A DNA stretch of 64,000 nucleotides from Bacteroidota bacterium (GTDB lineage: Bacteria > Bacteroidota > Bacteroidia > Chitinophagales > Chitinophagaceae). Positions 58,345-61,069 of the stretch are shown here, piece after piece. Position 1 is the first letter of the stretch; the number at the start of each line of letters is the position of its first letter. Location: the NCBI GenBank assembly GCA_947461125.1, contig CANHHX010000004.1, positions 1-64,000 of the forward strand. The letters run 5' to 3'. A model generated the notes under the pieces. The model was given only the letters and a program-made list of their open reading frames with translations, did not search any database and had not been told where the DNA came from. Both the position numbers and the translations under genes were made by a program.

Positions 58345-58623
58345 ATGGAATTAAGCCTCGAAACCATCGAAAAACTGGACCGCGCTGCGTTAATTCAATT
58401 AATTAACGAATGGATCACCCAAGACTTTAAAAAGCTGCTGCTCGTGCTTTACCGCCTGGACGTGAGTGAGAAAAAACTGAGTCAATTATTAGCTGAAAAT
58501 AAGGGTGTAGACGCCGCCAATATTATAGCTGCCCTTATTATTGAGCGCATCGCAGCGGCAAAAGCTTCTAGGGAAAAGTACAAAATGGACCCTTCTACCA
58601 TTCCGGATGAGGAAAAATGGTGA
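58345..58623 (+). CDS. Small conserved hypothetical protein
   Basis: 92 aa, helical; 9 bp downstream of the TIGR02757 gene. Confidence 0.65.
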   Translation: MELSLETIEKLDRAALIQLINEWITQDFKKLLLVLYRLDVSEKKLSQLLAENKGVDAANIIAALIIERIAAAKASREKYKMDPSTIPDEEKW

Positions 58624-58702
58624 TTTTCACATAAAACCAAGGGCTAAATCTCCAATTTTGTATAACTTTATAATTCAATTCAAAAACACTAAAACACTTA
58701 TT

Positions 58703-58879
58703 ATGAAAAAAATAATGATGCTTGCTGTTGCAGCTTTACTAACTACAGGTGCTGTATTTGCTTGTGATGGTAAAAAAGATTGCACTAAATGTAAAAAAGA
58801 AGAAAAGAAAGCTTGTGGTAAAGACTGCAAGAAAGATTGCAAAAAATGCAAGAAAGATCCAAAAACTGCAACTCTATAA
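58703..58879 (+). CDS. Secreted Cys/Lys-rich mini-protein
   Basis: Start set at MKKIMMLAVAALLTTGAVFA (signal peptide; track ORF begins at 58541); mature CDGKKDCTKCKKEEKKACGKDCKKDCKKCKKDPKTATL with 7 Cys; followed by a strong terminator. Confidence 0.75.
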   Translation: MKKIMMLAVAALLTTGAVFACDGKKDCTKCKKEEKKACGKDCKKDCKKCKKDPKTATL

Positions 58880-58952: not shown

Positions 58953-59648
58953 TTATAATAATTTGGCGATTGATGGTAAATCAAAAACTTCGTGTGTTGC
59001 TTTTACATGCGGCGTTGCACCTATATGATTTACAAAAATAGTATCCATGCCAGCGTTGATACCTCCTTTAATATCTGCATCTTGGTTATCGCCAATCATA
59101 ATACTATTACTAGCAGTGGCGCCTGTTTTGGCAAACGCATAATCAAAAATTTCTTTGTTGGGCTTTAAACTATTACTTGCTTCGGAAGTAATAACGGCAC
59201 CAAAATAGGGTGCAATACCAGCATGCTTAATTTTTTGGTGCTGCACATTTTCAAACCCATTGGTTACTAGGTGCATCTGATACCCTTTCCCTTGCAAATA
59301 AGTGAGTAGCTCGGTAGCGCCATCAAACAAGGCTTTTTTGGTAGGTAATACTTCTAAAAAATCAAGTGACATTTGCCTCGATAATGTTTCGTCGGCTATT
59401 TTATATTCTAAAAGTGCCAACCACATCCGTTTCCACTTTAATTCTTCTTGCTTAATAAAACCCTTGGTATATCTGTCCCATAAGCGGTGGTTGTGCGCGC
59501 TGTAATGATCAAAAAAATGATCAAAACTATCTACACCCCTACCCGCTAAGTTGTGCGAAGTATATAAATCTTGCAGGCTTTCTTTGGCATTGGTTTCAAA
59601 ATCCCAAATAGTATGATCGAGGTCAAAGAAAAGGTGTTGGTATTTCAT
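58953..59648 (-). CDS. YjjG-family noncanonical pyrimidine nucleotidase (HAD hydrolase)
   Basis: 231 aa; HLFFDLDHTIWDFETNA, LVTNGFENVQHQKI, SIMIGDNQDADIKGGINAGMDTIFVN. Confidence 0.93.
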   Translation of the reverse strand: MKYQHLFFDLDHTIWDFETNAKESLQDLYTSHNLAGRGVDSFDHFFDHYSAHNHRLWDRYTKGFIKQEELKWKRMWLALLEYKIADETLSRQMSLDFLEVLPTKKALFDGATELLTYLQGKGYQMHLVTNGFENVQHQKIKHAGIAPYFGAVITSEASNSLKPNKEIFDYAFAKTGATASNSIMIGDNQDADIKGGINAGMDTIFVNHIGATPHVKATHEVFDLPSIAKLL

Positions 59649-60409: not shown

Positions 60410-61069
60410 TTAAGCCCAAGTAGCAAGTACGGTAACACCACCCTTTACCACTTCATTGAGTGCCACATTAATTTTAGTACCAACTGGTAATAAAATATCT
60501 ACGCGGCTACCAAATTTAATAAAGCCGTATTCGTCGGTTTGCTTTACTTCTTGACCAACACTTGTATAATTACAAATACGTTTTGCAAGCGCACCCGCAA
60601 TTTGTTTGTATAAAATAGTACCGTGGCTATTTTCTACCGCTACACTCCATCTTTCATTTTCGGTAGAAGATTTTGGATGCCATGCTACCAAGTACTTTCC
60701 TTTGTGGTACTGGTTATACACCACTTTACCGCTCATTGGATTTCTATTCACGTGCACATTGGCTGGGCTCATAAACACACTCACCTGAATGCGTTTGTCT
60801 TTAAAATATTCTTCGTCTGTAATTTCTTCTATGACTACTACTTTACCATCGGCAGGACAAATAATTTGATTGTCATTGATGGTTAAGGTTCTATTCGGAA
60901 TTCTAAAAAAAGAAATAATAAATAAAAAGAAGAAAAGTGTTAGACCAAAAATAGCTCCAGCAACTCTTGGGCAACAGGTTCCGAGATAAGAAATTGAAAT
61001 TAAATTAATCACGCCAAAAATTAAGGCAGTGATTCCTATGGTACGGTAACCTTCGCGGTGAATTGTCAT
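60410..61069 (-). CDS. psd: Phosphatidylserine decarboxylase family protein
   Basis: 219 aa; ICPADGKVVVIEE, SVFMSPANVHVNRNP, FIKFGSRVDILLPVG (GS processing site). Confidence 0.94.
   Translation of the reverse strand: MTIHREGYRTIGITALIFGVINLISISYLGTCCPRVAGAIFGLTLFFFLFIISFFRIPNRTLTINDNQIICPADGKVVVIEEITDEEYFKDKRIQVSVFMSPANVHVNRNPMSGKVVYNQYHKGKYLVAWHPKSSTENERWSVAVENSHGTILYKQIAGALAKRICNYTSVGQEVKQTDEYGFIKFGSRVDILLPVGTKINVALNEVVKGGVTVLATWA

Follow-up and report, generated by a model that had tools for sequence, protein, structure and literature searches.

A psd-linked family of exported cysteine- and lysine-rich mini-proteins in Chitinophagales with a putative role in thiol or metal buffering

The window, a stretch of 64,000 nucleotides from contig CANHHX010000004.1 of a Chitinophagaceae genome (assembly GCA_947461125.1), contains an ORF on the + strand at 58703–58879. 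We confirmed that it runs from an ATG at 58703 to a TAA stop codon and encodes a product of 58 amino acids (MKKIMMLAVAALLTTGAVFACDGKKDCTKCKKEEKKACGKDCKKDCKKCKKDPKTATL). The features of the locus are as follows.

58624–58631, + strand: degenerate copy (TTTTCACA) of the promoter element TTTTAACA, with one mismatch and at the family spacing
58663–58670, + strand: TAACTTTA, a -7-like box of the Bacteroidota type, matching TAnnTTTR
58703–58762, + strand: Sec signal peptide, residues 1–20 (MKKIMMLAVAALLTTGAVFA), with the n, h and c regions assigned by eye
58763–58876, + strand: mature chain of 38 residues, with 7 Cys, 15 Lys and 1 aliphatic residue
58877–58879, + strand: stop codon TAA
58906–58937, no strand assigned: bidirectional intrinsic terminator, an inverted repeat with 13-bp arms, a 6-nt loop and a T-run in both directions

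An earlier note, made from the sequence alone, had described a secreted, Lys-rich mini-protein with seven Cys residues followed by a bidirectional terminator. The ORF and its product are supported by the sequence, by inspection of the signal peptide and by the orthologs, and the terminator by the inverted repeat and the T-runs that flank it. The signal peptide ends in AVFA, and all seven Cys residues lie after it; CxxC and CxxxC are both present in this copy and C-x-C is absent. The terminator sits between the mini-gene and a convergent gene for a YjjG-type nucleotidase (58953–59648), and the genome (2.24 Mb in 112 contigs, 87% complete) yielded a single copy of the mini-gene. Just upstream, a conserved ORF of 92 residues (58345–58623), 92–94% identical within the clade of the window, abuts the promoter region and is itself preceded by a TIGR02757/DUF2400 gene.

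Among eight near-identical orthologs from the same genus, the changes were mainly synonymous and the pairwise dN/dS values ranged from 0.0 to 0.26 (mostly 0.03–0.2), which indicates that the gene is under purifying selection. The low dN/dS and the presence of orthologs across the Chitinophagales rule out a chance ORF. A structured RNA was also considered and was dropped, since no Rfam match was found within the window. The earlier note would have given up the gene if homologs or a translation signal were missing or if dN/dS were high; in addition to the low values above, 57 relatives were found, and the selection makes translation of the mini-protein probable.

Public records matching the protein carry the labels Sediminibacterium or uncultured Bacteroidetes. 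Profile A1 gave matches in 77 of 147 genomes of the genus at an E-value of 0.01, of which we kept 71 as holders by leaving out weak matches to the signal peptide only and counting in the genome of the window. The same profile gave matches in 73 of 299 genomes of the order, with many of the weakest covering the signal peptide only. The family set that we read comprises 57 distinct members from the fetched loci. The family is defined here by an MKK start, a small residue ending the signal peptide, a Lys-rich mature chain, 3–7 Cys residues and a convergent YjjG-type gene downstream, all of which are found for the window protein. No match pointing to a function was obtained in Pfam, NCBIfam, PHROGs or PDB, in line with the earlier note, which could not place the protein in a named family, and no publication on the family was found in the literature searched, which covered few subscription papers. 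We regard as confirmed that the protein belongs to an unnamed, conserved family of exported mini-proteins.

The family is linked to psd and occupies one chromosomal spot in many Chitinophagales. In about 44 of the 57 relatives (counted by hand), psd lies immediately upstream on the same strand, and a YjjG-type gene lies convergently downstream in 46 of the 57. The link to psd holds at L018, L063 and L068, which come from another family of the order, and at L029, with psd only about 53% identical. In the clade of the window, the place and strand of psd relative to the mini-gene have changed, and psd lies not upstream but about 1.5 kb downstream on the opposite strand (60410–61069 in the window).

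Twenty genomes of the genus that do not hold the mini-gene were examined, and psd was present in all of them. In 18 of the 20, psd and the YjjG-type gene are adjacent, 11–119 nt apart, without an ORF of the mini-gene kind; in L098 psd is followed by a different gene, and the sequence of L116 stops shortly beyond psd. On the YjjG tree, a single branch (support 100/99) sets the 18 empty rows apart, and these are nested among the holders under a midpoint root, which serves for drawing only. Since the empty sites form one clade, one loss is enough, and a single loss of the mini-gene is the simplest reading.

A second exported Cys/Lys peptide, designated group B (NCGKKDCKDCKKEAKAHKCDKKCMKDGKCAEMKKK), was observed at L120 (1501–1695) and at L118–L129, flanked by two genes that were identified by eye, one phosphatase-like (pafA) and one for isocitrate dehydrogenase. 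Group B occurs in 33 of the 147 genomes, none of which is among the 71 holders (Fisher 5e-12). This exclusivity is confounded by the same empty clade and is thus not evidence of replacement. Functional replacement of the mini-protein by group B was therefore rejected as an explanation, since the pattern is possibly one historical event.

The region before the ATG carries a recurring pair of elements, TTTTAACA-N30-TAnnTTTR. Most of the 57 relatives have the box TAnnTTTR at 25–50 nt before the ATG, and TTTTAACA occurs in 27 of the 57 upstream regions against 1.3 expected. The strict pair TTAACA-N29..32-TAnnTTTR was found in 25 of the 57, compared with 0.06 in shuffles, a comparison made on related sequences. 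In the window, TTTTCACA stands 37 nt before the -7-like box, which is exactly the family spacing. The pair is kept in the clade of the window despite a different upstream gene and is absent from the empty psd/YjjG sites, which indicates that it most likely belongs to the mini-gene itself. The element TTTTAACA may be a regulatory element bound by an activator. We rejected it as the marker of a large regulon, since TTTTAACA-N29..31-TAnnTTTR was not clearly enriched genome-wide in six genomes (18 sites against 13 in the reversed control). At the other end of the gene, 49 of the 57 relatives have a hairpin with a score of at least 7 after the ORF.

Sec export followed by cleavage by signal peptidase I is predicted from inspection and conservation of the signal peptide. 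The last position of the signal is Ala in nearly all relatives read and Ser in L078, whereas the residue at +1 is H, Q, G, N, D, R, Y or C, and this variability argues for processing by signal peptidase I and not for lipidation. The earlier note had raised the possibility of a lipidated cationic peptide with Cys21 as the modified +1 residue (VFAC), which the relatives do not support. The clade of the window does carry Cys at +1, and the Pfam lipoprotein attachment profile matches 9 of 45 members weakly (best E 0.0022). However, Cys at +1 is confined to this clade and a few others, so that the orthologs show no lipobox with an invariant Cys; most orthologs at the same locus carry H, Q, G, N, D or R there, and VFAC is without the usual Leu at -3. 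A lipoprotein is accordingly unlikely, and we give it very little weight.

The mature chains are almost without hydrophobic residues across the family. An AlphaFold2 model of the mature chain of the window protein, calculated from an alignment of six sequences only, gave a mean pLDDT of 51, which is consistent with disorder. We determined the spacing of the Cys residues in 51 members, with the clade of the window collapsed to one, and compared it with shuffled chains; the script trimmed the signal 2 or 3 residues early in many rows, which slightly affected the shuffles. CC pairs numbered 65 against 22.6 expected (z 10, the z-scores being inflated by kinship), C-x5-C numbered 42 against 13.2, and a spacing of 6 between Cys residues occurred 25 times against 12, the last two counts also being drawn from related sequences. 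C-x-C was found 0 times against 20.5 expected, and CxxC 5 times against 18. Despite the kinship of the members, the placement of Cys is clearly not free, and the family rule is C-x5/6-CC. The chain outside the Cys positions varies among members. The number of Cys residues is 3–7 (five is commonest, in 26 of the 51, and the number is odd in 32 of the 51), and this variable and often odd count argues against a fixed disulfide fold. The Cys content of the mature chain is about 11% for the family and 18% for the window protein.

In regards to the motifs named in the earlier note, CxxC and CxxxC are indeed present in the window copy, but they are peculiar to its clade, which is a variant without CC. 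A conserved spacing does exist in the family, in the form C-x5/6-CC and not as the CxxC of the window copy. The internal repeat is present as a four-residue unit, KDCK, which is missing from L033 and L031 of the same clade.

The same note had called the composition metallothionein-like. C-x-C is typical of metallothioneins. Similar to these proteins, the family is short, rich in Cys and Lys and poor in hydrophobic residues, and it has vicinal Cys residues with adjacent Lys. In contrast, its members are exported (signal peptide by inspection) and not cytoplasmic, C-x-C is absent, CxxC is depleted, and the Cys share is lower, as given above for the family. The likeness thus stands for the composition and fails for the absent C-x-C and the export signal. 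The metallothionein family models of Pfam and NCBIfam gave no match, and membership was rejected on these three grounds. The pentapeptide MXKDX repeat proteins (TIGR02953) likewise are small and exported and have a low-complexity chain rich in Lys and Asp; this model matches 7 of 45 members weakly (best E 8.7e-4), whereas the window protein gives no match and has no MXKDX repeat. Weak and not confident matches to the HYC_CC_PP family (NF047658) were obtained for 6 of the 45 members (best E 0.0022), and the window protein gave none.

In a distant genus that belongs to the same class, profile A2 weakly picks out exported peptides, or segments, of the Cys/Lys type. The E-values are 1e-4 to 1e-7 on low-complexity sequence, and we take these matches as a likeness of composition without claiming homology. 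The peptides lie beside a multicopper oxidase at L093 and L180, beside an HMA-MauE protein and an AraC-type regulator at L153, beside an HMA protein at L182, and near an OsmC gene at L161. At L092, L158, L159 and others, at least ten besides L092, the peptides adjoin a DUF3347 protein whose HMA-like motif reads CDMCKSK. At L092 (1300–1671), L158, L159, L170 and L173, we also observed an exported protein of about 123 residues that contains CC-Lys segments, shares the motif IWL-PKIS/G as a conserved C-terminal feature and lies next to a DUF3347 protein with an HMA-like CxxC motif. At L156 (1–1683) and L165, one apparent operon groups an exported Cys/Lys peptide with rhodanese, thioredoxin and a small membrane protein. 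By analogy, these neighbours would tilt the interpretation toward soft metals or reactive sulfur.

We propose, as a plausible reading that falls somewhat short of probable, that the protein is a disordered, Sec-exported thiol peptide that acts on metal or redox chemistry as a putative soft-metal (perhaps copper) buffer in the periplasm. The gene, which is small and has a promoter-like region and a terminator of its own, would encode a Lys-rich mature peptide of about 30–55 residues with 3–7 Cys; Sec export and cleavage by signal peptidase I would yield a disordered peptide in the periplasm (or outside), where thiolates flanked by Lys may coordinate ions of soft metals, for example Cu(I) or Zn(II), and the peptide would serve as a dispensable metal or thiol buffer. 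This reading draws on the composition, on the similar peptides beside copper genes in the distant genus, and on the constrained placement of Cys in a mature chain that is otherwise variable. Against it, the family adjoins psd and a nucleotidase-like gene and not metal genes, there is no match to a metal family or structure in the libraries searched, and C-x-C is absent.

Two rivals to the metal buffer are live. It is unlikely, but worth weighing, that the peptide is a cationic envelope peptide, in which the disordered chain, rich in Lys, associates with polyanions (LPS, DNA or anionic membrane lipid) and Cys residues crosslink it by disulfides into multimers or to envelope proteins. Lys accounts for about one third of the mature chain, every member carries a net charge of +6 to +11, many members have C-terminal tails of the KTTAKPAAKA type, odd Cys counts suit intermolecular disulfides, and the product of the conserved neighbour psd synthesizes PE, a membrane lipid. 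However, the spacing of Cys, the CC pairs above all, is kept tighter than charge alone requires, and psd is not directly upstream in the clade of the window. Rather unlikely in our view is a sacrificial thiol peptide, whose Cys residues would serve in the periplasm as targets for oxidants, hypochlorous acid, electrophiles or reactive sulfur and thereby shield other proteins. The rhodanese-thioredoxin operon (L156, L165) and the OsmC gene (L161) of the distant genus point in this direction, as do the weak matches of some members to the MXKDX repeat family, whose name reportedly turns up in a hypochlorite-resistance study; the distant-genus peptides are a resemblance and not established homologs, and the locus of the family itself lends no support.

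Precursors of bufferins and other MNIO-modified exported peptides contain Cys and carry a Sec signal peptide (PMC12452194), and both features are present in the window protein. The family also resembles bufferins and chryseobasin in its short Cys-containing mature chain and in the proposed buffering of soft metals, and one distant-genus peptide matches the chryseobasin precursor model weakly, below the cut-off (E 6e-5). These likenesses would suit a RiPP precursor, modified as bufferins and chryseobasin are, or a secreted bacteriocin. On the other hand, the family has no EGKCG motif and no DUF2282 match, no member matches the chryseobasin model at E 0.1, and no modification, export or immunity genes are adjacent. 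The MNIO enzyme (DUF692, PF05114) is absent nearby, from the genome of the window (87% complete) and from 143 of the 147 genomes of the genus (71 of the 147 carry the peptide), in a search whose control was positive in Caulobacter. Bufferin identity was rejected on this absence; an MNIO RiPP is unlikely, and the chance that the peptide is a RiPP or bacteriocin precursor is slight.

A wider form of the metal-buffer reading, which we consider doubtful, would place the psd-linked family as the Chitinophagales core of a putative Bacteroidota-wide style of exported Cys/Lys peptide, unmodified and independent of any RiPP enzyme, that would buffer soft metals in the periplasm, with a dedicated activator-dependent promoter. 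If binding of Cu or Zn is true, the family would be an enzyme-free counterpart of bufferins and a simple test bed, with holders and natural non-holders within one genus. Small exported proteins are badly under-annotated. The present gene bears the marks of a genuine one (selection, synteny, a promoter-like element, a terminator and one clean absence), yet the libraries searched hold no family model for it. Should it bind neither metal, the family would still be a clear case of constrained CC pairs within an otherwise freely drifting chain.
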